IMG/VR virus record: IMGVR_UViG_3300027525_000006
Span: 1-50,465 of that record
Origin: a virus
Length of the DNA: 50,465 nucleotides
Strand: one strand, 5' to 3'
Shown: positions 5,137-47,447 of the stretch, in pieces
How positions within the stretch are numbered: the stretch's first letter is position 1
Layout: every line of letters starts with the position of its first letter
Position numbers and translations under genes: made by a program
Notes under the pieces: generated by a model
The model's database searches: none
Told to the model about the DNA's origin: nothing
Seen by the model: only the letters and a program-made list of their open reading frames with translations

Positions 5137-5168
5137 TTTGAAACTTTTTTAGGGTTTCACGTATAACT
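5137..5168 (+). promoter_or_regulatory. Early/middle promoter TTTGAAAC-N17-TATAAC for gp32
   Basis: TTTGAAAC at 5137-5144 and TATAAC at 5162-5167, separated by 17 bases. The same spacing and boxes occur before gp45, gp41 and the sugar-gene block. The transcript would have a leader of about 70 bases before the gp32 ATG at 5245. Confidence 0.6.
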
Positions 5169-5244
5169 ATTGAAAGTTTTTAAAGGTACCAATTAAAGAA
5201 CAATCAACGAATTAAAGTTAAACGAAATTAAAGTATTTAAAGTA

Positions 5245-6174
5245 ATGGCAGATTTTGACATTTTCAACCTGAGTGTATCAGATATTGACACTCACAACAC
5301 AACAGCAGCTTCGGCAGATGTAATCTACAAGCCAAGCGCAGATCAAGGAAAAGACGGAACTTATAAAGCTCTTATCCGCTTTGTTCCAAATCCTTCAAAC
5401 CCACGTAATTCACTTGTTAAAAAGTATGTACACTGGCTCACAGATGCTAGCGGTAACGGCAAACTTGTGGATTCTCCATCAACAGTTGGCGAGAAATGCC
5501 CAATTGCTGATGCATTCTTTAAATTGCGTAACAGCGATTCAGCAGTTGACCGTAAGATGTCAGAAAAGTTGAAGCGTCGTGAGCAATATTACGCACTTAT
5601 TAAAGTCATTAAAGATCCTCAACATCCAGAATATGAAGGTCAATATTTGATCTACAAGTTTGGTTATAAGATCAAAGAAAAGATTGATGAGGAGTTGAAG
5701 CCAGCATTTGGTGAGCCAACACAAGTATTTGACCTCTTTGAAGGTAAAAACTTTGAGTTGATTATCACTCGTCAAGGTGAATACAATAACTATGATAAGT
5801 CTAAGTTCTCTGCAAGTAAGTCAGCCGTGATCATTAACGGTGAACCAGCAGAACGTACTAAAGAAGCGATGACAGTTATTAAAGCAGAGCTTGATGCTGC
5901 ACCTTCTTTGGAACCTTACGAATACAAAGCATGGGACGAGGAATCTCGCTCATTTGTAAATGGAATCCTTCGTCAGTATTTGAATCCAGGAAGCTCAATC
6001 GATGAAGTTGTTAGCAAGCCAAAGCCAGCGGCTAAGGCTAAAGTTGCAGAAGCAGCTGCACCAACATCAAACGGTTCAGACTTTGAATTCCCTGAAGAAA
6101 TGACAACTACGCCAAAGTCTTCAGCTACTGATAGTGATGATCTTGATTCTTTTTTGAATGACCTCGACATCTAA
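5245..6174 (+). CDS. 32: Single-stranded DNA-binding protein gp32
   Basis: 309 aa. It follows T4 gp32 in order: short N-terminal cooperativity region, an OB-fold core with YKALIRFVPNPSNPRNSLVKKYVHW, LIKVIKDPQHPEYEGQYLIYKFGYKI and NYDKSKF, a low-complexity linker and an acidic tail (DDLDSFLNDLDI) very like the T4 tail DDTDLDDLLNDL. It coats ssDNA at replication forks and recombination sites and recruits partners through the tail. T4 gp32 binds zinc through one His and three Cys. Here only one Cys (in EKCPIAD) and one nearby His remain, so the zinc site appears lost. The primase start lies inside its last codons. Confidence 0.95.
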   Translation: MADFDIFNLSVSDIDTHNTTAASADVIYKPSADQGKDGTYKALIRFVPNPSNPRNSLVKKYVHWLTDASGNGKLVDSPSTVGEKCPIADAFFKLRNSDSAVDRKMSEKLKRREQYYALIKVIKDPQHPEYEGQYLIYKFGYKIKEKIDEELKPAFGEPTQVFDLFEGKNFELIITRQGEYNNYDKSKFSASKSAVIINGEPAERTKEAMTVIKAELDAAPSLEPYEYKAWDEESRSFVNGILRQYLNPGSSIDEVVSKPKPAAKAKVAEAAAPTSNGSDFEFPEEMTTTPKSSATDSDDLDSFLNDLDI

Positions 6175-7285
6175 AATCGACGAGTCTCTTAAATCTAAGA
6201 TTAGAAGTCTAGTTAAACAGGTTGTCGTAGCACAACACGTAGACCCTAACAAAAGGATGCTTAAGGAAATGCCAGGGAGAATATCCCTGGCATGCCCTTA
6301 TTGTGGGGACTCTACAACCGATACAAAAAAGAAAAGAGGTAACTTGTATTGGGAAAGCCTGCAATATCATTGTTTTAACTGTGGAACGCACAATGATGTA
6401 TACTCGTTATTAAAAGATCATCACGTTAATTTTAGTGATCGTGAGGATTCTATCGCAGTAATTGATTATATCCAATCACATAAAATCGAAGTTAATCACG
6501 TTGAAGTTTTAGAACATGATATCTTTAAAAAGATTTATGACTTAGCTCCAACTCGCGAAGAATTAACTCAACGCTTTGGATTTAAAGAAATTGAACCTGG
6601 AGATCCAGGCTTTTTCTATCTTCGTGGAAGAATGCTTTCTCATAAGATGGAAAACTTTATGTATTCTTCTCGAGATAAGAGACTTATAGTATTGAATCAA
6701 GCTCCTAACAATAAGGTTATTGGTTTTCAAACTAGGGCTCTTACTAAATATAGGAATGCAAGATACTTAACGTACGATATTGAAAAGATTTATCAAGAAA
6801 TGGGTAAAGAATTACAAGTTACTGAAGAGCAACTTATAAGTCTTAAGAAAATATCTACATTATTTGGTGTTTTAACCGTTGATCTTCAACGTGAAGTTAC
6901 AATGTTTGAAGGACCTATTGATGCTATGTTTATAAACAACTCCATTGGACTTGCAACTGCAGGTCGCTCAACTGAAGAGTTTGATGAAATTCCAACTATT
7001 CGTTACATGTTTGATAATGATGAAACAGGTAAAAAGAAAATGATGGAAAAATTAAAAAGAGGCAAGAAGATCTTCATGTGGGGTAAGTTCTTTGATGAAA
7101 CTAAACTAGATGTTAAGTGGGAAAAATACTTAAAAAGTATTGATAAAAATGAAAGGGATAAATATCCTAAAGAAATAGGTGATTTGAATGACCTAATTAG
7201 AGTTACATATTATCTTAAAGATAAGTGTATTTCTGATTTGTCAAAGTATTTTAGCAATTCAAAGCTTGATGCGTATTACCTATGA
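6158..7285 (+). CDS. 61: DNA primase gp61
   Basis: 375 aa. The N-terminal zinc finger has C46-P-Y-C49 and H71-C72-x2-C75 (CPYCGDS ... YHCFNCG), matching T4 gp61. A TOPRIM-type core follows with FEGPIDAMFI and MFDNDETGKKKM. It makes the RNA primers for lagging-strand synthesis together with the gp41 helicase, encoded at 37406. The ATG at 6158 overlaps the last 17 bases of gp32, so the two are probably translationally coupled. A further overlap of a few bases joins it to the next small gene. Confidence 0.93.
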   Translation: MTSTSKIDESLKSKIRSLVKQVVVAQHVDPNKRMLKEMPGRISLACPYCGDSTTDTKKKRGNLYWESLQYHCFNCGTHNDVYSLLKDHHVNFSDREDSIAVIDYIQSHKIEVNHVEVLEHDIFKKIYDLAPTREELTQRFGFKEIEPGDPGFFYLRGRMLSHKMENFMYSSRDKRLIVLNQAPNNKVIGFQTRALTKYRNARYLTYDIEKIYQEMGKELQVTEEQLISLKKISTLFGVLTVDLQREVTMFEGPIDAMFINNSIGLATAGRSTEEFDEIPTIRYMFDNDETGKKKMMEKLKRGKKIFMWGKFFDETKLDVKWEKYLKSIDKNERDKYPKEIGDLNDLIRVTYYLKDKCISDLSKYFSNSKLDAYYL

Positions 7286-9495: not shown

Positions 9496-11364
9496 ATGGC
9501 ACAATTAAACAAAATTAAATCATTTAAGTCTTTTTCAGACGTAATGGCTCAAGATAAGGCCGTTAAAATTGCTGAAGAAAATGCAACAAAGAGAGGCGAA
9601 TTAACAGCTAAAATTGCAGCATTATTAGACGAAATGAATATCACATCATTCGAGGACTTAGAAGAAGATGTAAAAAGAGAATTTATTACTAAAGCATTTG
9701 GTAATGTTTCTGAAGAAGAAGCAGGTATTGAAGCTGAAGAATTAGAAGATGAAACTAAAGTGGTTGATTCAGATGTTGAGCAACCAGAAGACGTTGAAAA
9801 AGAATTAGATCTAGAAGGTGAAGGTGACGCTGAAGGCGATGAAATCGCTGAAGGTAATGCATTCATTTTTGCTGCAGCAAAGGCTAAAGCAGCTGGAGAA
9901 AAGGAATTCGAATTCAATGGTAAAACATATAAAGTAACCTTAAAGAAAGACACGGGTCTTAGAGAATCTGTGCTAATTATTACTGAAGGTACAAGAGGTC
10001 AATTTGGCAAAATTTATAAGACTGGTGAAATTGCATCAGTATATACACATTACGATTCTTATCCAGAAAACATGCTTCCAATCATTAAGAAGGCATACAA
10101 AAAAGGTACAGACGTTGATGCTGTAATCTCTAAAGGAGATAACTCTGGCTTAGAAGCAGATATTAATAAAATGAATTTCTACGGAGATGTTAATAGCATG
10201 AAACCAATGAAAGGTAGTGTTAAAAATCTTAAGAAATACATTAATGACGCCGACAGTAACGGAGCAGAATATGCATATTTATTCGACGAAAGAGATGGTA
10301 AATGGTATATGATCGAATTATACGGTGATAGAGATTTAAAACCTGCATTTGAATCAACACAGGTTGAAGAAGGCAATGCATTTAGTGATGCTGTAAGAAA
10401 AGCTAAAGAAGCTGGTGAAAAAGAATTTGAATTTGAAGGTGAAACTTACAAAGTAGAAGAAGATTTAGAATCAGTTTTATGTGAAGCAACTGTAGAAATG
10501 GATGCAATGGATCCAGATGATAAGGACTTCTTAAAATTTTTAAAGAAGCATAAAGTAACAATCATTGATAAAAAAATGGATGGTCCAGGCGGTGGTAACC
10601 CAGTTATCACAATGCAAGGTAAAAGAAAAGATCTTGAAGCTGTTTTAGCTGATGAAGAATTAGGATGGGCTGATCCAGACCTAGCAGAATATATTGAAGA
10701 ATCAATTTTAATTGAAGCTGCAGTTGAAGAATCAGTAGTTACTGAAGTAAACGAAGCTGAAATTAAGTCTGATGATGAATTCAAAGAATATGCATTTTCA
10801 GTTTTACAAAAAGCTTTTGGCTCTGACTTTGACGAAGCTAAAGCACAGGAAGTTGTTGATGGTATCTTAGGTAAAGTTGACGGAGATTACGGAGCTGCTG
10901 TAGGTATGTTAACATCTTCATTAGGTGAATCATTAGAAGTTAATGAATCTAAAGAAGAGGATGAAGCATATTCAATTATGCAAGACCTTCTTGATGAAAG
11001 AGATCCATTTGAACTAGAAATGATGGAACCAGAAGAAGCTGAAGAGGTAGTTTCTTCATACGGCCACAAGGGTTCTAAAGCAAAGAAAATTGCACAATAC
11101 TTATACAACATGGCTTCAACTGGTGCATTTGAATCAGTAACTAATGAATCAGTTGAAGTTGCCGAAAAAAAAGCTGATGGTACAATCTCCGATGACGAAG
11201 ACGAAAAAAGAGAAGAATTGTTAGGTGAAGTTGAACAAGTAATGGACACTTTACTTAAAAGAATCAAAGAGGTCTCATTTGAGATTGGAGGAAATTTCAG
11301 AGCACCTGGCATTCAACATGATGCTAAAAAGGTGATTGACAGTATGGTCAAAAAGTTTAAATAA
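9496..11364 (+). CDS. Internal head polyprotein 1 (acidic, multi-domain)
   Basis: 622 aa, very acidic. The N-terminal part (to about 75) is helical. Residues about 76-119 (AEELEDETK ... EGEGDAEGDEIAE) are nearly the same as a stretch of the prohead protease/scaffold at 47514. Two copies of a module beginning EGNAF and containing AGEKEFEFxGxTYKV follow (from residues about 119 and 292). Candidate prohead-protease sites are IAE (117-119), ITE (162-164), VEE (290-292), VTE-VNE (415-420), VNE (482-484) and VTNE (about 550). Between these lie what look like separate small domains. I infer a packaged precursor cut into several peptides. The exact cuts, and whether every site is used, are unknown. 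Confidence 0.55.
   Translation: MAQLNKIKSFKSFSDVMAQDKAVKIAEENATKRGELTAKIAALLDEMNITSFEDLEEDVKREFITKAFGNVSEEEAGIEAEELEDETKVVDSDVEQPEDVEKELDLEGEGDAEGDEIAEGNAFIFAAAKAKAAGEKEFEFNGKTYKVTLKKDTGLRESVLIITEGTRGQFGKIYKTGEIASVYTHYDSYPENMLPIIKKAYKKGTDVDAVISKGDNSGLEADINKMNFYGDVNSMKPMKGSVKNLKKYINDADSNGAEYAYLFDERDGKWYMIELYGDRDLKPAFESTQVEEGNAFSDAVRKAKEAGEKEFEFEGETYKVEEDLESVLCEATVEMDAMDPDDKDFLKFLKKHKVTIIDKKMDGPGGGNPVITMQGKRKDLEAVLADEELGWADPDLAEYIEESILIEAAVEESVVTEVNEAEIKSDDEFKEYAFSVLQKAFGSDFDEAKAQEVVDGILGKVDGDYGAAVGMLTSSLGESLEVNESKEEDEAYSIMQDLLDERDPFELEMMEPEEAEEVVSSYGHKGSKAKKIAQYLYNMASTGAFESVTNESVEVAEKKADGTISDDEDEKREELLGEVEQVMDTLLKRIKEVSFEIGGNFRAPGIQHDAKKVIDSMVKKFK
9721..9852 (+). repeat. Acidic module shared with the prohead protease/scaffold gene
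   Basis: Encodes GIxAEELEDETKxVDSDVE and DLEGEGDAEG, also found at 48663-48793 in the gp21-gp22 fusion with only scattered differences. This is dispersed duplication of one module between two head genes. Confidence 0.75.
9850..9936 (+). repeat. GNAF/EFEFxGKTYKV module, copy 1
   Basis: 87-base module paired with a second copy at 10369-10455 inside the same gene. Both copies keep the core GEKEFEF and TYKV. Confidence 0.7.
10369..10455 (+). repeat. GNAF/EFEFxGKTYKV module, copy 2
   Basis: Second copy of the 87-base module, in the same frame and about 520 bases downstream of copy 1. Each copy is preceded by an acidic x-x-E site that fits the prohead protease. Confidence 0.7.
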
Positions 11365-11423: not shown

Positions 11424-11729
11424 ATGAAACACGTTAAACTATTCGAGCAATTTGTTAATGAAGCAGGTATTTTCAATACCTATAATACTATTGTTGGCTA
11501 CGAGCTTAAGAAGTTTATGGATTCATATAAGGAATTACACAAGGACAACCAGGTGATTTACGACAAGAAAGAGGATATTTCTTATGGTATTCGTAAAGGG
11601 TCAAAAGAGGCTCACTGGAAATACTTCCATGATGATGGCAGAATCTATCACTCTGAAAGAGATAGAGATGTTCTTGGTCTAATTCACGGTGCTAAAATGG
11701 TATCAAAAAATCATCCATGGTCAAAATGA
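11424..11729 (+). CDS. Capsid-targeted internal head protein (101 aa)
   Basis: Begins MKHVKLFEQFVNEAG: the short lysine-starting amphipathic peptide plus V-N-E that recurs through this cluster and resembles the T4 capsid-targeting peptide MKTYQEFIAEA. The predicted mature part (after residue 13) is about 88 aa, basic and aromatic (HWKYFHDDGRIYHSERDRD). No family recognised. Its stop overlaps the next gene's ATG (ATGA), so they are co-translated. Function after packaging is unknown; T4 proteins of this type are injected with the DNA. Confidence 0.6.
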   Translation: MKHVKLFEQFVNEAGIFNTYNTIVGYELKKFMDSYKELHKDNQVIYDKKEDISYGIRKGSKEAHWKYFHDDGRIYHSERDRDVLGLIHGAKMVSKNHPWSK

Positions 11730-12313
11730 AACACATAAAACTATTTGAACAATTTATAAATGAAGGTTTTGATAAACCTTTACATAAAAAGATATTGAAA
11801 TTTATTGAATCTACTAAAACATATATGGAGGTTTATGATGAAAACAATACCGAAGAGATCTTGTTACAAACAAGAGAAAATGGTGATGTTGGATACGAAG
11901 AAGTAAGTGATATAGATATCGCAGAAGCCGAAAGAGTTCAGAAATTGATTAAAAATAAGTTTCCAGATTTAAGAGTTAGTATTGAAGAAGTTGATGAATG
12001 GGTACATTTAAACATTTTAGGACCTAAAGTACCAGAATACAGATACAAATTCCAAAAAGCAGATCCAAAAACAGGCTCAGGTTTTTCTGAAACTTTTAAT
12101 ACATTTGATGAGATGCTTAAAAAACGAAAAACATTTGTTGGCGGTGTTAATTGGAAAGATGTTAAAAAGAATTTAGATAAAATAACAGACTATCCAAATA
12201 ACTTATTTACTGGCTGGCACTCTAGTAATAAAATTGTAATATCTAAGGCTGGCGATAGAGGTAATGACTGGGGCTATGACTTTTATGTATATAAATTAAA
12301 GGACGAAGAATAA
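11726..12313 (+). CDS. Capsid-targeted internal head protein (195 aa)
   Basis: The ATG at 11726, overlapping the previous stop as ATGA, gives MKHIKLFEQFINEGF, matching the other leaders; an in-frame ATG three codons upstream would add MVK and spoil the match. The I-N-E site ends at residue 13. The mature part is mixed alpha/beta and not recognised. It contains an aromatic-rich C-terminal region (NLFTGWHSSNKIVISKAG, then WGYDFYVYKL). Confidence 0.6.
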   Translation: MKHIKLFEQFINEGFDKPLHKKILKFIESTKTYMEVYDENNTEEILLQTRENGDVGYEEVSDIDIAEAERVQKLIKNKFPDLRVSIEEVDEWVHLNILGPKVPEYRYKFQKADPKTGSGFSETFNTFDEMLKKRKTFVGGVNWKDVKKNLDKITDYPNNLFTGWHSSNKIVISKAGDRGNDWGYDFYVYKLKDEE

Positions 12314-12315
12314 TT

Positions 12316-12645
12316 ATGAAACACATAAAACTATTTGAAGCTTTCTTAAATGAAAGAGCAGCAGACTATGAATACTTAGTAGATCTATTGTTAAACGCTG
12401 ATTTAAAATACGACGTTTATTACAATAACTCTTGGAGAGTTGTTAATGTTGGTGGTACAGGGTATGATAAAGGTGATTTAGTTAAGCAGTTTAATGCTAA
12501 ACCAGGCCAATCTCAAAAAATTAAGGATAACTTCTATTTAGCAGCTCAAAACCCTGCTGAAACAATGAAGCAAATTGATAAACTTACAAAAGGTAAAATT
12601 GAAGTAAAGCAAGAAGGTAGCTTATTAAAATACACTGTAAAATAA
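12316..12645 (+). CDS. Capsid-targeted internal head protein (109 aa)
   Basis: Begins MKHIKLFEAFLNERA with L-N-E ending at residue 13, the best match in the cluster to the (L/I)-x-E consensus of the T4 gp21 protease. The remainder (about 96 aa) is small, basic and beta/alpha mixed, with no recognised family. It is separated from both neighbours by 1-2 bases. Confidence 0.6.
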   Translation: MKHIKLFEAFLNERAADYEYLVDLLLNADLKYDVYYNNSWRVVNVGGTGYDKGDLVKQFNAKPGQSQKIKDNFYLAAQNPAETMKQIDKLTKGKIEVKQEGSLLKYTVK

Positions 12646-12646
12646 A

Positions 12647-13939
12647 ATGAAATTACTTCTAACATATCAAGAGTTCTTAATTGAAAAAGCAAACCGAGAT
12701 CTAAATGAGTGGAGAGATTCTCAACTTATTATGGAAGGTGGTGCAGCGGGCCACATGAGTCACCCGTTTGATGAGACTGATTTGACCTTTGGAGATTTCA
12801 AGAAAATCATTGAGAAGGGCTTGAGTGGTAATCTACACTTTGAAGAAGAACCTACTGAGAAGACCGATGGTCAAAATGTATTCGCAACTGTTCAAGACGG
12901 CGAAGTTAAATTTGCTCGTAATAAAACAGAATTAAAGTATCCTATGGATCTTAAAACTTTTAAGCAAAAGTTTGAAGGTCACCCAAGTAAAATGGTTGAG
13001 GAAACGTTCCAATTTGCAGCTGAAGATTTAGCAAAAGCTCTAATTAAATTATCAGCCAAAGATTTAGAAGCGTTTGACAATGGTAAGAACTTCATGAATA
13101 TGGAGTTAATTTACTCAAAGAATCCAAACGTCATCTATTACGATAGAGATGTTATTCAATTCCATGGAATTAAAAAGACAGATGGCGAAGGTAATATTAT
13201 TGGAGAAGAATCAAGTTACGCTAAAAGTATCGCAGCAGCTTTAGAAAAAGTTAAAGCAAACGTTGGTAATACTTTTACAATTATTCCTCCACAGGTTATT
13301 AAACTAGGTAAAGATATGAACTTTGATCAAAATAAGGCTAAGTTCTTTAAACAAGTTCAAGATCTACAGGATCGTTATAAATTAACAGATGCTGATGAAG
13401 TTTCAATGTATCATGAGATGTGGTGGAGAGAACAAATTGATCAAAACTTTCCAGGTTTATCACAGGATATTAAAGAAGGTCTCTTACTAAGATGGGCGTA
13501 TCAAGACAAAAAGACTCTTAATATGAGATCACTTGATAAAGAAGTGGGTAAAGAAGGAGCAGCAAAGGTTAAAGAATTTGATAAGATTTCAGGTCAAAAG
13601 TACAAAGAGAACATTAGACCATTTGAAGACTTATTCTTAGAACTAGGAAGCGTTATTCTTAAAAACGCAAGTAATTTTGTTGCTGCTAACCCAAGTGCAG
13701 AAATGCAAAGATTACACAATCAAATTAGAACAGAAGCCGATAAAATTAAAAAAGGTGGAGATGTCAAGCAGGTTGAAAAAGTAATGTCAGAACTTGACCG
13801 TTTAAATAGAATTGGAGGCATTGAATCCATTATTCCAACTGAAGGTATTGTATTTAGATATAAGGGTAAAGTAATGAAACTTACAGGTACATTTGCTGCA
13901 ATTAATCAGTTGATGGGTATTATAAAATACGGTAGATAA
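12647..13939 (+). CDS. Capsid-targeted ligase-like nucleotidyltransferase
   Basis: 430 aa. The leader MKLLLTYQEFLIEKA shares TYQEF with the T4 internal-protein leader and ends in L-I-E (11-13). The body shows the spaced motifs of the polynucleotide ligase/capping fold: motif I K72-T-D-G, motif III-like NMELIY (M152, E153), motif IV E399-G-I-V and motif V V-M-K411-L. Such proteins form a covalent nucleotide-lysine intermediate and seal or cap nucleic acid ends. The gap between motifs III and IV is long and filled by a helical insertion. The ligase-like call rests on motif order. Substrate (DNA or RNA) and activity are not known, and a non-ligase nucleotidyltransferase is possible. Confidence 0.6.
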   Translation: MKLLLTYQEFLIEKANRDLNEWRDSQLIMEGGAAGHMSHPFDETDLTFGDFKKIIEKGLSGNLHFEEEPTEKTDGQNVFATVQDGEVKFARNKTELKYPMDLKTFKQKFEGHPSKMVEETFQFAAEDLAKALIKLSAKDLEAFDNGKNFMNMELIYSKNPNVIYYDRDVIQFHGIKKTDGEGNIIGEESSYAKSIAAALEKVKANVGNTFTIIPPQVIKLGKDMNFDQNKAKFFKQVQDLQDRYKLTDADEVSMYHEMWWREQIDQNFPGLSQDIKEGLLLRWAYQDKKTLNMRSLDKEVGKEGAAKVKEFDKISGQKYKENIRPFEDLFLELGSVILKNASNFVAANPSAEMQRLHNQIRTEADKIKKGGDVKQVEKVMSELDRLNRIGGIESIIPTEGIVFRYKGKVMKLTGTFAAINQLMGIIKYGR

Positions 13940-13940
13940 A

Positions 13941-14483
13941 ATGAAAAAAGTTAAATTATTTGAAGCATTTATTACAGAAGGAAAATGGTCTAAAATTATG
14001 ACTGGAGTTAAAAAAGGTTCTAAGTCAGGTCCATGGACGGTAGTGGTTATCAAAGATGGTAAGGTTATCGACCAATTGCATGTTGATATAATGGATGCTA
14101 TTCCAGCATCTTATGAAGCTGCCAAAAGAAAACATCCTAACTCTAAAATTTCTATTGAAGATAACGAGGGTATGATTGTATATAATGAATCAGTAGTTAA
14201 TGAAGCTGTTGCAATGAGTTTAGATCAAATGACAGATTGGTTAGAAGACGAACTTGGGTTTAGATTTGTTGATACGACAGAAAGATTTAACGGTAGTAAA
14301 GGTGGTATTTGGTTAGCAGCAGACGACAAGGAAGAATTTAAAGGTAAAGTAGTTTATGACTACTATGCAAAAAGCCCTGCTTATGAAATGGGAGTTTTAA
14401 AAACGTTTGCAAAAGAATTGCAAAAAAGAGGATGGTATAGTGAATTTTACGATCCAGGAACTGTGATGCTCTGGCAAAAATAA
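13941..14483 (+). CDS. Capsid-targeted two-domain internal head protein
   Basis: 180 aa. The leader MKKVKLFEAFITEGK carries I-T-E. A first small basic domain (about 14-80) follows, then the linker NESVVNEAVAM with V-N-E at 86-88, then a second domain of about 90 aa (MTDWLEDELGFRFVDTTE ... GWYSEFYDPGTVMLWQK). The same ESVVNEA linker separates domains in the gene at 20638. I infer two mature proteins released from one precursor. Neither domain is recognised. Confidence 0.6.
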   Translation: MKKVKLFEAFITEGKWSKIMTGVKKGSKSGPWTVVVIKDGKVIDQLHVDIMDAIPASYEAAKRKHPNSKISIEDNEGMIVYNESVVNEAVAMSLDQMTDWLEDELGFRFVDTTERFNGSKGGIWLAADDKEEFKGKVVYDYYAKSPAYEMGVLKTFAKELQKRGWYSEFYDPGTVMLWQK

Positions 14484-14498
14484 GATTAAATAAAAATT

Positions 14499-16382
14499 AT
14501 GGCACTTAAAAAATTAAGAGAACATTTTCAGGAGACAAACTCAAATGCTTTTCAAAAGCTATTGAGCAATAGAGTAATGGTTGTTGAAAAAATTTCAGCA
14601 CCATCTTTTTACGTTCGTAGAGTTAATGATAAATTTGAATTTTACAAATCTTCAAATGGAGAACCACTTACTATCGTAGATCGTACTATTATGTCATTAT
14701 ATGAAATTGCAATTAAACATATTCAAAGTTTAGATCCAACTTCTAAAGAATCTCTTCCACATGATTTTAAGTTTGGTTTTGAATATTTACCAGAAGAAAA
14801 GGTGTCACGTTTTGAATACACTAAAACACCAAACAATACTTTAATCTTAACTCATATTCAACAATTAACCGAGAGCGGTAAAGTTAAAAAAACAATTATA
14901 GATCCTACTATCATTAAGAAGTGGTCTAAAGTATTAGACGTTGAACCACAAACTGTTTTATTTGACGGTATGTTAACTTCAATGCAAAAAGAAAAACTAA
15001 CAAGATTGTTAGAAATGAATGATAAAGAGTTTTCTGCTAACTATGATTATTTAACAGAAACTGAAAATATGACATCATTCACTAAAGAAATTTACAAGAT
15101 CTTTAATCCAAATGCGCATGCTACGATTTTACAAGAAGATTTAGAAAAAGAAATTGATGGATTAATTCTTAACTTCGCAGAAGGTAAAAAAATCTATTCA
15201 TATAAACTTGAAGACTTTATGAGACAATCTCTTAATGAAGGTCGCGAAAGTTCTCATATTTATCAAATCACAGTTGCGGATCTTTTAGAATATTTCATTA
15301 ACTATGATTTCAGTGAAATTCAATTAGTTGAAGAGACCGCTGATCATAGATATATCGAATTAATGTCAATTGCGTTTAATGAATATGTTACAAAGAACGC
15401 ATCTAAATATATTGGAGTTAACTTTGAAAGCGCTGAATTCTCAAGTGCAGAATCATTCAAGTTAAACACTAACTTTGTTAAAAACGAGAAAACACTACGT
15501 CACGTTTCAAATGAAGTTCTTTCTGAATTGTTTAAAATTACTTTAGGTACTTTTAGAAAGAAGAGAACAAAGACATCAGATATCATTAACGATGATATGA
15601 TGAAGCAAATGAATGAAGTTATCGATACTATTAATCAGGTTGTTTTCGTAGAGAACACTGATGAAAATTCTATTTATGATTATAAGAACTTTATGTTGCA
15701 TAATAATATTAAGACAAAAATGAGTTTAAACGAAGCATTAAAAATTAATCATGGTGAACAAGGCGCTGAACCAGTAAATATGTTTGTTGGAAGATTTCAA
15801 CCATTTACATTAGGTCATGCTAAAGTTCTTGAAACTATTCACAAACAAAATGGTTTTCCAGTTGTTGTATTCTTAGTTAAATCTAAGACTGTAAAAAAAG
15901 GTGATGAATTTAGCAGACCATATGATGAAAAATTACAGGTTGAAATGTTCAAACAGGTTCAAAAACAATATCCATTCCTAAAAGAAATCATTGTAGTTTC
16001 TTCAGCGGCAATCGATATGATGTTTAATGAACTACGTCCTAAATATGAACCAGTTCTTTGGGGAACAGGAACAGATAGAATGAAAGCATACGGTTATCAA
16101 GTTAATAATGATTCTTATAGAGATCAATTAAATGTCCGTAAAGACTTTAGCCTTTATGAAATTCCAAGAACTGACGATAATATTTCTGCTACTAAAGTTC
16201 GTAACGCAATGTTAGATGGTGATGAAGCTTCATTTAAAGCAATGACTCCTAAAGCGCTTCATAAGATGTATAAGACTTTAAAAACACAATTAGAAAAGTC
16301 TATGAATTTAATCACTGCATCTAAAGATCAACCAGAAGGTTTAATGACCTTTGAACAATTTATGAATAAACTACAAGGATAA
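14499..16382 (+). CDS. Ligase-like domain fused to a NadM-type adenylyltransferase, head-cluster enzyme
   Basis: 627 aa. The N-terminal half has ligase/capping-fold traces: VVEKISAPSFYV (K31), GFEYLPE (motif III), EIDGLIL (218-223) and YSYKLED (motif V), although motif I lacks the usual K-x-D-G. The C-terminal half is a HIGH-superfamily nucleotidylyltransferase: GRFQPFTLGH (431-440) and ISATKVR (562-568), most like NMN adenylyltransferases of the NadM/NadR type. It may make NAD from NMN, or adenylylate another substrate. The protein ends MTFEQFMNKLQG, a C-terminal echo of the capsid-targeting peptide, while its own N-terminus only has LREHFQET. The fusion and its packaging are inferred. Confidence 0.65.
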   Translation: MALKKLREHFQETNSNAFQKLLSNRVMVVEKISAPSFYVRRVNDKFEFYKSSNGEPLTIVDRTIMSLYEIAIKHIQSLDPTSKESLPHDFKFGFEYLPEEKVSRFEYTKTPNNTLILTHIQQLTESGKVKKTIIDPTIIKKWSKVLDVEPQTVLFDGMLTSMQKEKLTRLLEMNDKEFSANYDYLTETENMTSFTKEIYKIFNPNAHATILQEDLEKEIDGLILNFAEGKKIYSYKLEDFMRQSLNEGRESSHIYQITVADLLEYFINYDFSEIQLVEETADHRYIELMSIAFNEYVTKNASKYIGVNFESAEFSSAESFKLNTNFVKNEKTLRHVSNEVLSELFKITLGTFRKKRTKTSDIINDDMMKQMNEVIDTINQVVFVENTDENSIYDYKNFMLHNNIKTKMSLNEALKINHGEQGAEPVNMFVGRFQPFTLGHAKVLETIHKQNGFPVVVFLVKSKTVKKGDEFSRPYDEKLQVEMFKQVQKQYPFLKEIIVVSSAAIDMMFNELRPKYEPVLWGTGTDRMKAYGYQVNNDSYRDQLNVRKDFSLYEIPRTDDNISATKVRNAMLDGDEASFKAMTPKALHKMYKTLKTQLEKSMNLITASKDQPEGLMTFEQFMNKLQG

Positions 16383-17866
16383 TGAATTATAAAGACATAA
16401 GAGTTAAGTTTCAAAAAGCAATGAATGAGGCAAGACAGCCTTATAGTCAAGGATTATCACAAGTCATTAGAGATATTTTATTAAAGAATAAAGTCAGAGG
16501 TAACAAAACACAGAAATTAGACGAGCTTCGTTTTGGTATTTCAGGAGATTCTAAACAAACAGTTGATTATTTAAGCAATGTTGCCTTGAAAGGAATTAAT
16601 CAACAACACTATACTATTACGTTTGAGGGACCAGATAGAGCTAAAAAAGGAGATGCTAAATCAGGAACTTATAATACATATAAGATTACTATTTTAAATC
16701 CAATCTCAATTAATAAATACAAAGCCCAACCCGGAGATGTCGTTTACATTATCGATAACTTAAAGGCAAAATCAAATATTCAAAATAAAATGTTAACCCC
16801 AGATGGCTTAGGTCTCGGAGGTAAAACATTTAAAAATTTAGATGAGGTTAAAAGAGCAGTTGAAACGGCTTTACTTCAATTAGTATCTAATGAATCGATT
16901 TCAGAAGTTCATAAAGAGTTCATGTTACTCCTAATCGATAGCTTAAGAACAATTAAAAAGAGATATACTCACGTTTCAGACGTAGCAGCAGGAGCAACTG
17001 ATCAAATATTTTTCGAAGGAGAATATGGAGATCACTTAAGTGATCCAGATGTTGCTAAAATTGCAAAAGATTATGGTGAAATTTTAGGAGGTATCTATAT
17101 GTTACAAATGACAGGCGGTGGAGCTAAAGGGTTAGAATTTCCAACTGCTGCCAATGAACCACTTGTTGACTTTTATATTGATGGACAGGGTTTATCAATG
17201 AAAGCTGGAACCGGTGCAAGTGCTTCTTTAAGTAATGTTGCATCTTTAATTTCACAAAATCCATCAAAATGGGAAAACTTAATGTCAACTGAAAATGAAA
17301 AGTTAATGTTAAAGGTAGTTCAGTTATTTGGTAATGAAACTGCATTCATGGGAATGTTTAAAGTTGCTGAATTATTAAATACACCAGGATGGGAATATCT
17401 TAAAGAACTCTTAGGTGATAAAAACTTAAAGGCCGATAAATTAGATTCTACTAAACTAACACAATGGGTACGTGAATATTTCACTAAGAATCCAGATGAA
17501 GCATATGAAAAGTTTGACACATACTTTAGTAGATTAAATAAAAAACCAGATGGTTGGGATAATAAAGAATTACAAATTGAAGATGCTATTCAGCGTAAAG
17601 AAGGTTACGGTTTGATATTCTCACCTCTTGCATATCACGTTAAAGATCAATTAAACGACAATGATTTATTAATTGACGCATTGGCATCAGTTGTTCAAAA
17701 ATTTGATGTTCTACAATTATACATTGATTTATCTATTAACACTAAGAAAAAATATCAAAAATACTTATTAAAAAAGTTTGCTGAAGGCAAGTTTTTATTT
17801 AATGCAACTCCATCGGTCAACATGCCAACAAGAAACAAGTTTTCTTTCAAGATGGTTAAAAAGTAA
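16382..17866 (+). CDS. Head-cluster protein, possible PD-(D/E)XK nuclease
   Basis: 494 aa, ATG overlapping the previous stop (TAATG). The N-terminus MNYKDIRVKFQKAMNEARQP carries M-N-E at about 14-16 in the leader position. In the middle, a Glu in KDYGEILGGIYML (about 233), then PLVDFYIDG with D263 and LSMKAG with K274 give an E...D...SxK order like the catalytic core of PD-(D/E)XK nucleases. It is surrounded by a conserved-looking FPTAANEPLVDF and GTGASASLSNV. If correct, this would be a nuclease carried in the capsid. The motif is degenerate (Ser instead of Asp/Glu before x-K), so the enzymatic call is weak. Confidence 0.45.
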   Translation: MNYKDIRVKFQKAMNEARQPYSQGLSQVIRDILLKNKVRGNKTQKLDELRFGISGDSKQTVDYLSNVALKGINQQHYTITFEGPDRAKKGDAKSGTYNTYKITILNPISINKYKAQPGDVVYIIDNLKAKSNIQNKMLTPDGLGLGGKTFKNLDEVKRAVETALLQLVSNESISEVHKEFMLLLIDSLRTIKKRYTHVSDVAAGATDQIFFEGEYGDHLSDPDVAKIAKDYGEILGGIYMLQMTGGGAKGLEFPTAANEPLVDFYIDGQGLSMKAGTGASASLSNVASLISQNPSKWENLMSTENEKLMLKVVQLFGNETAFMGMFKVAELLNTPGWEYLKELLGDKNLKADKLDSTKLTQWVREYFTKNPDEAYEKFDTYFSRLNKKPDGWDNKELQIEDAIQRKEGYGLIFSPLAYHVKDQLNDNDLLIDALASVVQKFDVLQLYIDLSINTKKKYQKYLLKKFAEGKFLFNATPSVNMPTRNKFSFKMVKK

Positions 17867-17903: not shown

Positions 17904-20066
17904 ATGGATTTCAATAATTTCTTAAACGAAAGACGTATTACTATTAAAAGAAGATATACTGAAAATCACCCAGCACTAGAAGCTGGTCAATCTGCTAGAG
18001 TACGTAATAAAATTTTAGAAGCAATTGCAGACGGATCTATTACAACTGAAGAGTTTGAAAATATTGTCTCTGAAATTTCTAATGATTCTAAAAGATGGGT
18101 TAAGAGAAACTCAAGATATTTCAGCGTATCTGAAGAAGGAGTTTCATTATCTAAGTTCGGTAAAAGAATTCTAAAGAGCATCGCAGTAAATGAAGCTTTA
18201 ATTAATGAAGAAAAATCAGCATCTGAAAAGCTGGCTGATGAAGTTTCAGGCGAACTATATCAAGCAACTCTAAGAGGAAACTCAGCTACAGTTACTGCAA
18301 CTACTACAACACAAACTTGGGACGATGGAGTTCCAGTCCTAAAATATCTTGCAAAAGGTAAGGGCAAGCCAGTTAAAATGGAAAAGAAAGTATTCAATGT
18401 TGTTCACGATGTTGCACATGGTTGGTTCTATTTTACAGATGGTAGAAAATGGTTCGGTCTTCATATGGAAGATGGATATTACGATCCTTCTGATTTACCA
18501 TTCGATCTTAAAGTGGCAGAATCAGTAGATGAAAAAACAACTAAGAATCCAGAAGTATGGGTTCCTGGTGATTTTGATAAAGCAGTAGGTAAATTAAAAG
18601 CTTCTCAAATCACAAGAGAAAAGATTATCGAATTAGCAAAAAAATATGATGTTGGTGTAGTTGATGCAATTGCGTATGTAGAATACGGCTGGAGCTTAGA
18701 CCTATCAGAAAATAATAACACAGAAATGGCAAACAATTTTATTTACGAATCATTCACAGAATTCGTTAACTCATTAAATGAGAATCAACAAATTAATGAA
18801 GGTAAAACAGAAAACGGTAAAGTAGTTACTGCGTGGAAAAAAACAGGTCTTACAGATCTTGATGCAATTGCTAAGGTATATGCTGATGCAATGGAAGATG
18901 CAAATTTCCATAGAGAAATCGTAACTTCTAAAGCAATTGGTTCTGCATCAAGAGCTAAGAAAATGGATGTAGACCCTTCTAATATTTCTAGTGCAGCAGG
19001 ATGGTCTGGGTATGCAATTGCAAACGGTACTGTAGATTTCTTAAGATCTATCGATCAAGAAGCAGCAGCTGATAAACTATACACTGCAATCTCTAAGTTT
19101 AATTTAAACGAATCGACTTTAATTAACGAAGCATTCAAATCTTCAAAGCTTTCTTCGATCGCTAATCTAAATTATGGAGACCAGTCTTTCTTTAAGGCGG
19201 TTGCAGCATTCACAAGAGTAAAACTAGATCAGATCACTGACGATCAAGTTGTTGAAATGACTCCAAAAGAGGCTTACAAAACTAAAGCACATCCAGACGC
19301 ACTATTCTTCTACATTTCCGACAATGAGAAGACTAATCCGTATGCTGACAGAAACTCATGGAATAAAAACATTCCAGGAAACACTCTACTTGCAGTTGCA
19401 AATGGTAGAAACGAAATGTTTAACGTGTCATGGGAAAAATCTTGGGCTACTAAAGACAATAGCAAGACGCTTAAGAACGTTGGTAGATACGGAGAAGGTC
19501 ATGGTGTAGATAAGAGACACTCTGGCTATGGTGCTTCAGGTCTATCAAACATCAAAAGACTTTCTGAAGTTGCAGATAGAGTTCTAATGTTTGACCCTTC
19601 AATTCTTCCTTCATCAACAGATCAAAGAGTTGAAAGAGCTGCTGCTAAGAAAGGTGCAATTGCTTTTATGAACGATAAAGAATTTAAAGCGATTAATCAA
19701 AAGAGATATACAGAAATTTTATCTACTAAGGCTGCAGCACTCCCATTAGACAAGGAAGTTGACAAAGCAATTAATATGTTAACTAATCAAATTAAAAAAG
19801 GTTTAGCAGCTGGAGAAACGACAAGATACGGTGATATTAAGATCGGAACCAATAAAAAAGGAAACGATGCTAAGTTAAGAGATGCTTCAAATCATATGTC
19901 AAGTATTCTCGATGCATACTCAAATTATGTTGAATATTCTAATAAAGTTACAAAGGCCACACAGGATGGAGAAAGAACTTCATATTACACAGAATACGTT
20001 AAACAATACGCTAAAGACGTTGCAGATAAAATCAAACAGATCCCAACATTTGACTATGCTTGGTAA
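17904..20066 (+). CDS. Internal head polyprotein 2
   Basis: 720 aa. The leader MDFNNFLNERR has L-N-E at 7-9. Further protease-type sites are VNE-ALINE (95-102), QQINE (297-299) and TLINE (407-409); each lies in a flexible stretch between apparently folded domains. Predicted pieces are 10-102 (basic, helical; contains a segment like TTEEFENIVSEIS), 103-299 (starts EKSASEKLADEVSGELYQAT), 300-409 and 410-720. Upstream of 297 the segment YESFTEFVNSLNENQQ again mimics a targeting peptide. No domain is recognised. The repeated pattern of leader-like peptide plus (L/I)NE before each domain is the main support for a polyprotein. Confidence 0.55.
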   Translation: MDFNNFLNERRITIKRRYTENHPALEAGQSARVRNKILEAIADGSITTEEFENIVSEISNDSKRWVKRNSRYFSVSEEGVSLSKFGKRILKSIAVNEALINEEKSASEKLADEVSGELYQATLRGNSATVTATTTTQTWDDGVPVLKYLAKGKGKPVKMEKKVFNVVHDVAHGWFYFTDGRKWFGLHMEDGYYDPSDLPFDLKVAESVDEKTTKNPEVWVPGDFDKAVGKLKASQITREKIIELAKKYDVGVVDAIAYVEYGWSLDLSENNNTEMANNFIYESFTEFVNSLNENQQINEGKTENGKVVTAWKKTGLTDLDAIAKVYADAMEDANFHREIVTSKAIGSASRAKKMDVDPSNISSAAGWSGYAIANGTVDFLRSIDQEAAADKLYTAISKFNLNESTLINEAFKSSKLSSIANLNYGDQSFFKAVAAFTRVKLDQITDDQVVEMTPKEAYKTKAHPDALFFYISDNEKTNPYADRNSWNKNIPGNTLLAVANGRNEMFNVSWEKSWATKDNSKTLKNVGRYGEGHGVDKRHSGYGASGLSNIKRLSEVADRVLMFDPSILPSSTDQRVERAAAKKGAIAFMNDKEFKAINQKRYTEILSTKAAALPLDKEVDKAINMLTNQIKKGLAAGETTRYGDIKIGTNKKGNDAKLRDASNHMSSILDAYSNYVEYSNKVTKATQDGERTSYYTEYVKQYAKDVADKIKQIPTFDYAW
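18201..18268 (+). repeat. INEEKSASEKLADEVSGELYQAT module, copy 1
   Basis: 68-base stretch nearly identical (4 differences by eye) to 21526-21593 in the gene at 20638. It starts exactly at the I-N-E cleavage-type site, so the duplicated unit is a linker plus the start of a mature peptide. Confidence 0.85.
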
Positions 20067-20092: not shown

Positions 20093-20635
20093 ATGAAACA
20101 CGTAAAATTATTTGAACAATTCGCAAACGAAAAAGTTTACAGATTAACTGGAATGTATGCATCTAAAGGTATTATTGGAGCTTTAATGCAAGCATTTAAA
20201 AAAGAGATTGAAAGAATCAGCCACAACGGTGATCCAGTTGAAACCCTAGACGAAGTTAATGCAGCTTGGGCTAAATGGGCTCCAAAGGACGGCGCTAAAA
20301 TCATTATTGACAGAGTAATGAAAGCCGTTAAGAACAAAGAAGAGGTTGCATTTATTACAGCTTCATTGAACTCGAAATGGGAATTAAACCCTGAGTTCGG
20401 CGATGGTGTAGGCGGTGTAATGAGATTCTACATTCCAAACGACTTTGTAATCAACGTTGGTTTCATGGATGACGCTGATGGTAGCAGATATTCAAGAAAA
20501 CTTGATGGCGGGTTGAACACTCCACTTTTTATTGCATCTAAAGATGTTGAAATCATGGGAGCATTCGATCCAGAAGTTGGTCATAACAATGTTGAGATCA
20601 GAGGTCGTGAGACTATGATGGCTGACGAAAAATAA
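20093..20635 (+). CDS. Capsid-targeted internal head protein (180 aa)
   Basis: Leader MKHVKLFEQFANEKV, nearly identical to the leader at 11424, with A-N-E in the cleavage position. The mature part begins with a helical region (IGALMQAFKKEIERI, WAKWAPKDGAKIIIDRVMKA) and ends with a beta-rich, acidic region containing GVGGVMRFYIPNDFVINVGF. No family recognised. It lies 26 bases after polyprotein 2 and 2 bases before polyprotein 3. Confidence 0.6.
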   Translation: MKHVKLFEQFANEKVYRLTGMYASKGIIGALMQAFKKEIERISHNGDPVETLDEVNAAWAKWAPKDGAKIIIDRVMKAVKNKEEVAFITASLNSKWELNPEFGDGVGGVMRFYIPNDFVINVGFMDDADGSRYSRKLDGGLNTPLFIASKDVEIMGAFDPEVGHNNVEIRGRETMMADEK

Positions 20636-20637: not shown

Positions 20638-22233
20638 ATGCCAAGTACAAGTAAATCACAACAACGACTAATGGGAGTTGCATACGCTGTTAAATCTGGT
20701 GATATGCAACTTTCTGACATTGATAGCGAGTACAGAGACAAGGTAAAAGAATTAGTGGACGGCATGTCCTTAAAGGATCTTAAAGATTTTGCATCTACTC
20801 CGCATGAAGGTTTACCTGAAGTTGTTGAAAATATTACACCAGCTTCGATTGGAGGTATGGGTCAAGTTCAACTACCTATCAAAACAGAAGTTGGATCTGG
20901 TGATGTCCCAGCAGGTCGAGGAGATGCTAAAAAAAGATATAAAAAGAAAATGAAATTTAAGCACAAAATCGCAACATACGAAGAATTTCTTTCTACCAGC
21001 AAAGAAGCAGTAAATGAAATGGGTATTAATGATCCAATTCTAATCGCGTTTAGAGCTGCTAAAATGAAGCGCGAAGCTGAATTGGCAAAACCAAAGCGCA
21101 AACCTCTTTATGGTAAGCAGAGACTAAAAGCTGAAGATGATCTATGGTACATTAGCCAAGAGCTAAAAGACCTTTATTCTGATAGAGGTCAAATGCTAAT
21201 TGACATGGAAGAAGAGGCTGAAGCTGAAGGTGGTCCAATTGCCGATGAATATGGCGATAAGCTAAACAAGATTGAAGATGAGATTCAAAAGCTTATTGCT
21301 AAGAGAAACAAGCTTGAAATGATGTTAGCTGAATCAGTGGTTAATGAAGCTAAATTCAAAGCTGGTCAAGTTTGGATGTGGAAGCATGTTGATGGAGATA
21401 AGGAAGTTGAAATCACTGATATCAAACCTAATGGAGATGTTGTAGGTAAGGTTAAAGGAACTTCAGACGAATTTATTGTTAGAGACGCTAATAAATGGCT
21501 TAAGAAGAAAGTGTCTGAATCTGTAATTAACGAAGAAAAATCAGCTTCTGAAAAGCTGGCTGATGAAGTTTCAGGTGAATTATATCAAGCAACATCAGAA
21601 GAAATTGATGAAAAAACAATCTATACTGGTCGAACTGAAGTAGATATTATGGATGAAGTTGGAGGTGATATTCATAGCATATACGGTAAATTAAATGATT
21701 TAGCAGAAGAGACAACTGATGCTAAATGGAGAAAAGCCATTGAAGGTATTATTAAAAATCTTGAAGGAGTTGAAAACAAAATTGGTCAAACTGCTAACAA
21801 GTTAGGTGTTGTTCCAACATATGAATCAGAAGAAGTTAATGAAGCTCGTTCAATCAATAAGATTCAAAAAGAATACTCAGCTGTAGTATCTGAAATGTCT
21901 GAAGTTGTTTTAAACTGGAAAGTCGCTAAAGAATCAGGTGATACTAAAGCTGAAGCTAACTTTTTAGCAAGATTAAAAGAACTTACTGCACAGAAAAAAT
22001 CTTTAGAGAAAGAATTAAATCAAGCTGTAATGGGTAAAGATAGAAACGCTGAATTAGCGGGAGCTTTAGAATCTTTAATGTTAGAAGGTTCTATGTCAGA
22101 AATTGATATTATTGCTCAAGAAGCTAAGAATTTAAAGGACTTTATTAAAGAAGTATTAAAATATCTTAAGGTTGAAGACTCAAAGGAATTAAGAGATTGG
22201 TTAACGTCATTATACGCACCTTATCAAAGTTAA
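20638..22233 (+). CDS. Internal head polyprotein 3 with DUF3008-like N-terminus
   Basis: 531 aa. Residues 1-62 (STSKSQQRLMG ... KDFASTPHEGLPE) look like the small DUF3008 family found in many phages. A basic linker with IATYEEFLSTSKEAVNE (V125-N-E127) follows, a complete internal capsid-targeting-like peptide. Further sites are SVVNE (235-237), SVINE (297-299), EEVNE (400-402) and MLE (about 481-483). These divide helical coiled-coil pieces from a small beta domain (VWMWKHVDGDKEVEITDI, 240-290). I infer processing into four or five peptides. None has a known function. Confidence 0.55.
   Translation: MPSTSKSQQRLMGVAYAVKSGDMQLSDIDSEYRDKVKELVDGMSLKDLKDFASTPHEGLPEVVENITPASIGGMGQVQLPIKTEVGSGDVPAGRGDAKKRYKKKMKFKHKIATYEEFLSTSKEAVNEMGINDPILIAFRAAKMKREAELAKPKRKPLYGKQRLKAEDDLWYISQELKDLYSDRGQMLIDMEEEAEAEGGPIADEYGDKLNKIEDEIQKLIAKRNKLEMMLAESVVNEAKFKAGQVWMWKHVDGDKEVEITDIKPNGDVVGKVKGTSDEFIVRDANKWLKKKVSESVINEEKSASEKLADEVSGELYQATSEEIDEKTIYTGRTEVDIMDEVGGDIHSIYGKLNDLAEETTDAKWRKAIEGIIKNLEGVENKIGQTANKLGVVPTYESEEVNEARSINKIQKEYSAVVSEMSEVVLNWKVAKESGDTKAEANFLARLKELTAQKKSLEKELNQAVMGKDRNAELAGALESLMLEGSMSEIDIIAQEAKNLKDFIKEVLKYLKVEDSKELRDWLTSLYAPYQS
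21526..21593 (+). repeat. INEEKSASEKLADEVSGELYQAT module, copy 2
   Basis: Second copy of the 68-base module found at 18201-18268, again beginning at the I-N-E site and in the same reading frame. Differences are mostly synonymous, which suggests the protein segment is maintained. Confidence 0.85.
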
Positions 22234-22307: not shown

Positions 22308-22553
22308 ATGATGCAACCATTCCTATTTAAACCCGATAATTACGAATCATGGTCAAGTAAGGCGATTGAAAAAATCGAATTAACCATTGAAAGTTGTCAA
22401 ACGCGTTGTCAACTTGAAACTGCTGCCAAGATGGTAGATAACTTCGTATTAATTATGGTTTTGAATGAAACTTATTCACAGGAAATAGTACAAGATATAT
22501 CGCGTCAACTATATTTATGCTTAAAATTAAAAGAAAGTAGATTACATGGATAA
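22308..22553 (+). CDS. Small hypothetical protein
   Basis: 81 aa (MMQPFLFKPDNYESW...), helical, with two Cys in CQTRCQLETAAKMVDNF and no membrane segment. First gene after the promoter/terminator at 22239-22283; it overlaps the start of the cytidylyltransferase-like gene by 8 bases. No family recognised. Confidence 0.55.
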   Translation: MMQPFLFKPDNYESWSSKAIEKIELTIESCQTRCQLETAAKMVDNFVLIMVLNETYSQEIVQDISRQLYLCLKLKESRLHG

Positions 22554-23124
22554 AAATAAAGGTAAAATCGGCTTTACCGCTGGTAATTTTGATCTTTTGC
22601 ACCCTGGTTACATTTATACATTTGAAACCGCTAAACAACACTGTGATTATTTTATGGTGTTTTTGCAAATGGATCCCTCAGAAACTCGATTTACAAAATA
22701 TAAACCAGTTATTCCATTGTATGAACGATACAAGACTTTAATGGCTATTAAATATGTAGATGAGGTAGTATGTTATCAAACTGAAGAAGACCTAATTAAA
22801 TTAATCGAGTTCTATAAGCCAGATATTCGTATTTTAGGAGATGATTACATTGGTAAGCGCTTTACTGGTGATAATCTTCCACCTGAAGTTATTTACACAA
22901 CACGTTCACATGACTGGTCAACTACTAAGTTGAAAGATTTGATTACTATTCAAACTGTAAAGCAAAATCCAGAAATTGTAGACCGTGCAAAGAATGAAAA
23001 TTCAACTTCGTCAGCACAAAGATTAATGTTAGCAATTAGAGATCAAATTGCTCAACATGCTGAAGGAAATCTTACAGAAGATCAATATAAAAATGCAATT
23101 AAAGAATTATTAGAACAAGCATGA
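22546..23124 (+). CDS. TagD/GCT-like nucleotidylyltransferase
   Basis: 192 aa. The N-terminal GFTAGNFDLLHPGYIYTFE is the HxGH-type signature of cytidylyl-/adenylyltransferases (here H-P-G-Y), and WSTTKLKDLI corresponds to the distal (S/T)-T-x-(L/I)-K motif. A C-terminal helical extension of about 50 aa follows. Family members couple CTP or ATP to a phospho-sugar or polyol such as glycerol-3-phosphate. It overlaps the next gene, a nucleotide-sugar dehydratase, by 4 bases, so both probably act in making an activated sugar. Replacement of the last His by Tyr is unusual and may change substrate or activity. Confidence 0.75.
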   Translation: MDKNKGKIGFTAGNFDLLHPGYIYTFETAKQHCDYFMVFLQMDPSETRFTKYKPVIPLYERYKTLMAIKYVDEVVCYQTEEDLIKLIEFYKPDIRILGDDYIGKRFTGDNLPPEVIYTTRSHDWSTTKLKDLITIQTVKQNPEIVDRAKNENSTSSAQRLMLAIRDQIAQHAEGNLTEDQYKNAIKELLEQA

Positions 23125-47102: not shown

Positions 47103-47447
47103 ATGAAACACGTAAAATTATTTGAAGAATTCTTAAGTGAAGAAGCAATGAAAGTGACTCCAGAATCTGACGTTATTGTAGACGATTACATAACAGATAA
47201 CGCTGAAGAAATCAAAAGTAGCGAGATTATCGGTGCTATTGTAAGCTCAGAATCAGAAAAGGAGTTTCAAGATTATTTTTATAATACATATGGTCAAGGA
47301 GCTTTCACAACAAACGATATTCAAACTTTGATTAAGTACTATAATGATTATCTAGAAGAAGTAACTGCTAAAGAAACAGAGGAAGAAGAAGCTGCTAAAA
47401 AAGAAACTGAAGCGGGTTCTGAAGAAGATCCATTGGCAGGGATATAA
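47103..47447 (+). CDS. Small prohead core protein with capsid-targeting peptide (gp67/gp68 position)
   Basis: 114 aa. Leader MKHVKLFEEFLSEEAM with L-S-E at 11-13, the same family as in the 9496-22233 cluster. The rest is acidic and helical with a Glu/Ala-rich tail (EETEEEEAAKKETEAGSEE). It lies between portal and protease, where T4 encodes the acidic core proteins gp67 and gp68. This links the leader peptide to core assembly and is the best positional evidence that these leaders target the prohead. Confidence 0.65.
   Translation: MKHVKLFEEFLSEEAMKVTPESDVIVDDYITDNAEEIKSSEIIGAIVSSESEKEFQDYFYNTYGQGAFTTNDIQTLIKYYNDYLEEVTAKETEEEEAAKKETEAGSEEDPLAGI

Follow-up and report, generated by a model that had tools for sequence, protein, structure and literature searches.

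A 50,465-nucleotide contig of a T4-like phage (IMG/VR virus record IMGVR_UViG_3300027525_000006, positions 1 to 50,465; analysed whole and called the window hereafter) encodes three proteins that we interpret as one module: P1, with the fold and invariant active site of an RNA-ligase-like nucleotidyltransferase; P2, in which a domain resembling T4 RNA ligase 2 (P2lig) precedes a NadM-like nucleotidyltransferase domain (P2nt); and P3, which bears a nuclease-like signature. In the explanation we prefer, all three would be loaded into the prohead via T4-type targeting peptides (N-terminal in P1, internal and C-terminal in P2), would be trimmed by the head protease and would enter the cell together with the DNA. 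P1 would form a lysyl(K72)-AMP intermediate and seal RNA ends, most plausibly those of tRNA cut by anti-phage RNases; P2nt, an adenylyltransferase resembling nicotinamide mononucleotide (NMN) adenylyltransferase (NMNAT), would work with P1, while P2lig, related to Rnl2, would mainly serve a structural role or bind nucleic acid, and P3 would be a nuclease-like partner. We put the probability of this explanation as a whole, a packaged, trimmed and injected module whose P1 repairs RNA, at about one half. RNA repair early in infection is the best single reading of the module's biological role, and we hold it tentatively.

A ligase-fold protein and its fusion partners

An earlier note on this DNA, made by a model from the letters, had drawn attention to two open reading frames (ORFs), and the program-made ORF list contains both: P1 and P2 (14499-16382, 627 residues). 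P1 has no significant profile match in Pfam, PHROGs, NCBIfam or PDB, and its assignment therefore required comparison of structures. When an AlphaFold2 model of P1 (predicted local distance difference test 91; predicted template modelling score 0.86) was compared with PDB using Foldseek, the first 39 matches were all ligases or capping-superfamily proteins, with T4 Rnl1, fungal Trl1 and archaeal RNA ligases at the top, in agreement with the ligase fold that the note had proposed. In a library of viral structures, some of the best matches are phage proteins that carry the annotation 'cytidyltransferase-like', a label that agrees with the P2nt-P1 fusions described below.

The motifs K72TDG and E399GIV, on which that proposal was based, proved to be real and invariant: K72, D74, G75, R91 and E153 are found in 101 of 101 relatives, and there is no exception to E399, G400 and K411 among the 99 that have that column. 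The residues of motifs III, IV and V lie in order on strands 149-155, 400-405 and 408-412 of the model, so that P1 has the KxDG motif, the motifs III/IV/V and the fold match that define the covalent nucleotidyltransferase superfamily. Its insertion between motifs IIIa and IV is large compared with the usual ligase spacing, and an invariant His/Asp element (H36, H39, D42) stands directly ahead of the ligase core. At least 593 IMG/VR stretches contain a member of the family. Judged by sequence and model, P1 is very probably an active covalent adenylyltransferase. The fold similarity and a fusion to a CCA-adding enzyme in one relative are the two observations that point to RNA as the nucleic acid it may act on.

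Profiles did not link P1 to named ligase families. There was no match to the T4 Rnl1 family (PF09511), which picks out other loci in the relatives, nor to the LigA adenylation domain (PF01653; 0 of 14 large relatives, all with P1, in which co-occurrence was counted and whose contigs may be incomplete, making absences soft), leaving the idea of P1 as a LigA relative unsupported. P1 and P2lig do not match each other significantly by profile, though both are ligase folds.

P2lig, modelled as its orthologue in the relative L044, has T4 Rnl2 as its best PDB match (E 5.6e-6, probability 1.00). Its motifs have decayed: among 88 sequences, the motif III Glu persists in 33, the motif I Gly in 32 and the nucleophilic Lys in 82 (lost in 6), and the window copy retains the Lys, has EKISA instead of EKxxG, and carries D instead of the motif IV Glu. 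P2nt lies above the curated cut-offs of Pfam CTP_transf_like (32.8 bits against 21) and TIGR00125 (34.4 against 27.7), and motif alignment reveals HxGH-type and ISSTxxR-type motifs, which place it in the HIGH superfamily. Its profile finds an archaeal NMNAT first in PDB (E 3e-11), followed by NaMNAT and NadM-Nudix, and CoaD ranks lower; NMNAT equivalog and subfamily cut-offs are far out of reach (25.9 bits against 409 and 26.1 against 127). P2nt is thus a putative NMNAT-like adenylyltransferase, its substrate predicted from this likeness. The note had described P2 as a ligase-like half fused to a NadM-type adenylyltransferase (TLGH, ISATKVR); the NadM-type nucleotidyltransferase and an Rnl2-like fold are both there, but the case for the ligase half as an enzyme is weakened, its motifs being unconserved. 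phrog_3041 (678 positions) was considered as a P2nt-P1 family and found unsupported, since only its first part matches P2nt.

P3, whose ORF overlaps the 3' end of P2, may be a nuclease: E233, D263 and K274 are invariant in 11 sequences, in a PD-(D/E)XK-like arrangement. No profile match was found for it, and no nuclease is among the 50 fold matches listed. S-PM2 p143 (L170:4546-6306), the gene after the S-PM2 cytidyltransferase, was tried as a P1 homologue and rejected; it has a P3-like signature (IPEAANEALIDY...ISVKSK), with a weak profile link to P3 (probability 3.7).

The domains of the module are shuffled among relatives. Where the window has P1, P2lig-P2nt and P3 as three proteins, other genomes have P1, P2lig-P3 and a P2nt joined to the N-terminal domain of the window 17904 product, or P1 followed by P2lig-P2nt-P3. 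P2nt is fused to P1 in the Microcystis phage Mel-JY01, L091, L142-L162, L164 and L165, and in the reverse order, P1-P2nt, in L163; nearly every copy of a distant clade is a P2nt-P1 fusion (at L151 the P1 ORF starts at the contig edge and fusion cannot be judged). P2lig occurs alone in huge phages and P2nt alone in cyanophages. At the three distant loci checked (L154, L161 and L164), the fusion is followed downstream by the terminase large subunit and the portal, and most other distant loci resemble these in ORF sizes and order. In L164, a 1907-residue ORF (835-6558) contains a CCA-adding enzyme (PolyA_pol, 1.5e-29), P2nt and P1; partnerships of phage RNA ligases with nucleotidyltransferases, CCA-adding enzymes among them, are known (PMC7824862). 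It is likely that P1 and P2nt belong to one pathway. L164 itself is a contig of a Flavobacteriales metagenome-assembled genome, in which the 1907-residue ORF adjoins a phage terminase and portal. At another locus (L011:3922-11163), the P1-P2 pair is duplicated in tandem and the copies have diverged.

Leaders, processing sites and virion homologues

In the window, an N-terminal peptide of the form FxxF(h)xE (for example MKHVKLFEQFVNE) begins 9 of the 57 main ORFs, against 0.23 expected when N-termini are shuffled. It recurs on 110 of 442 ORFs around P1 in 29 relatives (5.3 expected), which are not independent of each other. One of the nine, an acidic ORF at 47103, occupies the place of T4 gene 67/68 (core proteins gp67/68), and is an internal control tying the leader peptide to the prohead core. 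The leader ends in the window agree with the cleavage rule of the T4 protease gp21, (L/I)-X-E, which acts on the T4 capsid targeting sequence (PMC9026906). For P1, an N-terminal leader with an (L/I)-X-E site is found in 55 of 56 non-redundant stand-alone relatives against 3.3 expected; the T4-like leader that the note had seen on this protein is therefore beyond chance.

P2 has no N-terminal leader. Instead, its leader-like C-terminal end (MTFEQFMNKL in the window), also picked out earlier, is kept as a class in 41 of 47 tails, with 0.06 expected, and the linker between its two domains contains a second FxxF motif in 39 of 47 relatives. A prohead-protease-type site (for example SLNE/AL) is present in this linker in 46 of 47, as compared to a background of 15% of equal-length stretches of the same proteins. 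T4 Alt is cut by gp21 at both ends (PMC9026906). Other proteins of the leader cluster (9496-11364, 13941-14483 and 20638-22233) contain repeated internal ES(V/I/L)xxE(A/S) sites, such as ESVVNEA, which gives these multidomain proteins the appearance of polyproteins processed by the head protease.

The leader cluster occupies 9.5-22 kb of the window, while 45-50 kb is the site of the portal, head protease and major head genes, 23-28 kb beyond it. The link to the head accordingly rests on the common leaders and not on adjacency: of the earlier description of these enzymes as carried with the head-protein cluster, the shared leaders remain and the neighbourhood does not.

Proteins annotated as cytidylyltransferase/NMNAT have been detected in the virion proteomes of the cyanophages S-SCSM1 (PMC9602691), S-CREM2 (PMC10665884) and S-SZBM1 (PMC9146016). 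Two of these three proteins were compared with the P2nt profile, which matches S-SCSM1_91 at 3e-25 and S-CREM2 gp154 at 6e-13; they begin MKSFLQFLKE/A and MKNFSSFLTE/A, respectively. In two relatives, then, a leader joined to a P2nt-type domain is a virion protein. Together with the leader statistics, these virion homologues bear out the note's proposal of packaging by a T4-type leader (PMC10665884, PMC9602691). We consider it likely that the module is packaged in the head; it is probably injected with the phage DNA. S-SCSM1_93 (L168:5808-6017; 69 residues, DUF3008-like by eye), an annotated virion protein, has a leader-like C-terminus, TFKEFLEYIE.

Proposed RNA repair and the competing explanations

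Several observations weigh against the explanation we prefer. Firstly, the Foldseek scores of P1 are modest (E from 3.3e-3 at best to 1e-2, with probabilities of 0.80-0.91 at the top), DNA could also serve as its substrate, and no end-healing kinase or phosphatase was seen beside it. Secondly, canonical Rnl1 is encoded by 5 of the 14 large relatives and an Rnl2-type ligase above the cut-off by 2. Thirdly, the P2nt-P1 fusions of the distant clade are without an N-terminal leader. Fourthly, the authors of the virion proteomes allow for co-purification (PMC9602691, PMC10665884), and no virion report was found for the P1, P2lig or P3 families, mass spectrometry covering P2nt homologues only.

P2nt could instead be the core of the module, an NMNAT injected to sustain NAD+ against host NADase defences, with P1 as a passenger partner. 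This has been proposed by the virion-proteomics authors (PMC9602691, PMC10665884), phages are known to salvage NAD+ (PMC9503650, PMC12774641), and the best profile matches of P2nt are NMNATs, yet the domain stays below NMNAT-specific cut-offs, and NADases yield ADP-ribose and nicotinamide, not NMN. Moreover, NAMPT/NadV is found in just 1 of the 14 large relatives, as compared to NadV in every NadM phage of one survey (PMC9503650), which indicates that a NadV-NadM salvage pair is not the pattern here. The wholly invariant active site of P1 would also be left needing its own explanation. NAD synthesis against NAD-depleting defences, which the note had suggested, is thus unproven, and we judge it unlikely to be what the module is for.

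The note's other suggestion, sealing of genome ends, would have P1 repair nicks or ends in the incoming genome while P3 trims ends. P1 does belong to a superfamily common to DNA and RNA ligases, P3 shows its PD-(D/E)XK-like signature, and the gene adjoins terminase in the distant clade; the top structural matches of P1, however, belong to RNA ligases. Six of the 14 large relatives encode a canonical ATP-dependent DNA ligase, and these six account for 4 of the 5 longest relative contigs (Mel-JY01, at 190 kb, gave no canonical DNA ligase match). Because such ligases coexist with it, P1 is unlikely to be a replicative ligase, and its candidacy as the phage's main DNA ligase was rejected. End sealing is weakened on the same grounds, and we find DNA repair improbable.

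The ligase fold might also serve virion assembly rather than the infected cell. T4 Rnl1 (gp63) also acts in tail-fibre attachment, and the fusion has a late, head-proximal site in distant relatives. Invariant catalytic residues in P1, a cargo-type leader with a processing site and the persistence of P2nt homologues in mature virions all argue against an assembly factor, which we hold to be more improbable still.

Least probable, in our estimation a slim chance, is a head-delivered RNA repair enzyme in which P1 adenylates from NAD+ and P2nt rebuilds NAD+ from the released NMN: it would account for an AMP-transferring ligase and an NMNAT-like domain being fused or adjacent throughout, and for the invariant H36, H39 and D42 before the ligase core, but P1 has no recognised NAD-binding Ia domain and the 14 relatives gave no NAD-ligase profile match. 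We have taken these four readings in descending order of probability.

Known systems and other features of the window

Like the T4 internal proteins and Alt, the module has a short N-terminal amphipathic leader, an (L/I)-X-E site, an Alt-style C-terminal propeptide (PMC9026906) and presumed packaging and injection; unlike them, its cargo is ligase-fold, nucleotidyltransferase and nuclease-like, the cargo ORFs are many more, and targeting motifs also stand between domains and at C-termini. The cyanophage virion proteins (S-SCSM1 ORF91 and S-CREM2 ORF154) are P2nt homologues with a leader of the same type, whereas no P1, P2lig or P3 is detectable beside them with module profiles; S-SZBM1_140, a cytidylyltransferase/NMNAT-like protein detected in virions, has been grouped with them. 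P1 shares fold and motifs I, III, IV and V with T4 RNA ligase 1 and the Trl1/archaeal RNA ligases, but differs in having no sequence-family match, a helical insert of ~160 residues, a nucleotidyltransferase partner and a capsid leader. P2lig has the fold of T4 RNA ligase 2 and, in part of the family, an EKxxGSSF-like motif I, but loses the motif III Glu, the motif I Gly and sometimes the Lys. The HIGH adenylyltransferase domain of P2nt is related to NadM of phage NadV-NadM salvage, but comes without a Nudix domain, usually without NadV/NAMPT, and with ligase partners instead. The polyvalent proteins that phages package in their heads are likewise large polypeptides of several domains, for which entry with the DNA is predicted (PMC9503650), and the 1907-residue L164 protein resembles them; the domain set of the module, however, is not described in the surveys examined.

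What is new is the content of a T4-type cargo, for which we found neither the enzyme family nor the pairing described; T4-type packaging itself is known. Surveys and literature term searches, most subscription papers lying outside them, returned no earlier pairing of a nucleotidyltransferase with an RNA ligase, and a literature search found no publication on Mel-JY01. Packaging of host-takeover proteins in T4 is classic, and the NMNAT-like virion proteins of cyanophages have so far had no known reason; the module offers one, in that the nucleotidyltransferase is tied by repeated fusion to an undescribed RNA-ligase-like family with intact catalytic residues. If RNA repair is correct, phages would deliver a nucleic-acid repair kit before gene expression, when host RNases strike; were the NAD+-recycling variant true, an NAD+-using RNA repair machine would be injected with phage DNA. 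The modular use of targeting motifs and protease sites inside multidomain cargo should make other cargo predictable from sequence alone.

Features of the module and the leader-bearing ORFs in the window (positions in the window)
Feature	Position	Strand	Basis
Three small leader-bearing ORFs (MKHVKLFEQFVNE, MKHIKLFEQFINE, MKHIKLFEAFLNE)	11424..12645	+	leader scan
P1, RNA-ligase-like covalent nucleotidyltransferase, 430 residues	12647..13939	+	ORF, AlphaFold2, Foldseek, invariant motifs
P1 leader MKLLLTYQEFLIE, T4-type capsid targeting sequence with L-x-E cleavage site	12647..12685	+	55/56 relatives
P1 motif I, K72-T-D-G	12860..12871	+	K, D, G invariant, n=101
P1 motif III, MELIY (E153)	13100..13114	+	E invariant, n=101
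P1 helical insertion, about residues 226-388 (~160), between motifs IIIa and IV	13322..13810	+	model
P1 motifs IV and V (E399-G ... K411-L-T-G)	13841..13888	+	invariant 99/99
Leader-bearing ORF between P1 and P2, MKKVKLFEAFITE, internal ESVVNEA site	13941..14483	+	ORF list, leader scan
P2lig, Rnl2-like fold, degenerate ligase motifs	14499..15653	+	L044 orthologue model; motif decay
P2 linker, FxxF motif (IYDYKNFML) and processing-type site SLNE/AL	15654..15755	+	site in 46/47 relatives
P2nt, HIGH-superfamily NadM-like nucleotidyltransferase (GRFQPFTLGH ... ISATKVR)	15756..16304	+	Pfam, PDB profile
P2 C-terminal leader-like tail MTFEQFMNKLQG	16344..16379	+	41/47 relatives
P3, PD-(D/E)XK-nuclease-like (E233, D263, K274)	16382..17866	+	invariant residues; in relatives, joined to P2lig or to P2lig-P2nt
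Leader-bearing protein MDFNNFLNE; first ~100 residues fused to stand-alone P2nt in relatives	17904..20066	+	BLASTP 6e-26 to L044:12277-13620
Leader-bearing ORF MKHVKLFEQFANE	20093..20635	+	leader scan
Acidic ORF with leader MKHVKLFEEFLSE, flanked by portal (45484) and head protease (47514)	47103..47447	+	leader scan

PADLOC found no match to known defence proteins. The leader cluster comes after genes for a single-stranded DNA-binding protein, primase and DNA helicase at 5.2-9.5 kb. Within it, the stretch INEEKSASEKLADEVSGELYQAT is common to the products of 17904-20066 and 20638-22233, a shuffled module. At 22546-24047, an HldE-like protein, the second nucleotidyltransferase, precedes a nucleotide-sugar epimerase. 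The DNA polymerase is carried in two ORFs (27656-29053 and 33796-35001), and the genes in between include those for ribonucleotide reductase subunits. The head protease ORF (47514-49472, 652 residues) has repeated (F/Y)xxYLxE motifs, and is perhaps a protease and scaffold combined.

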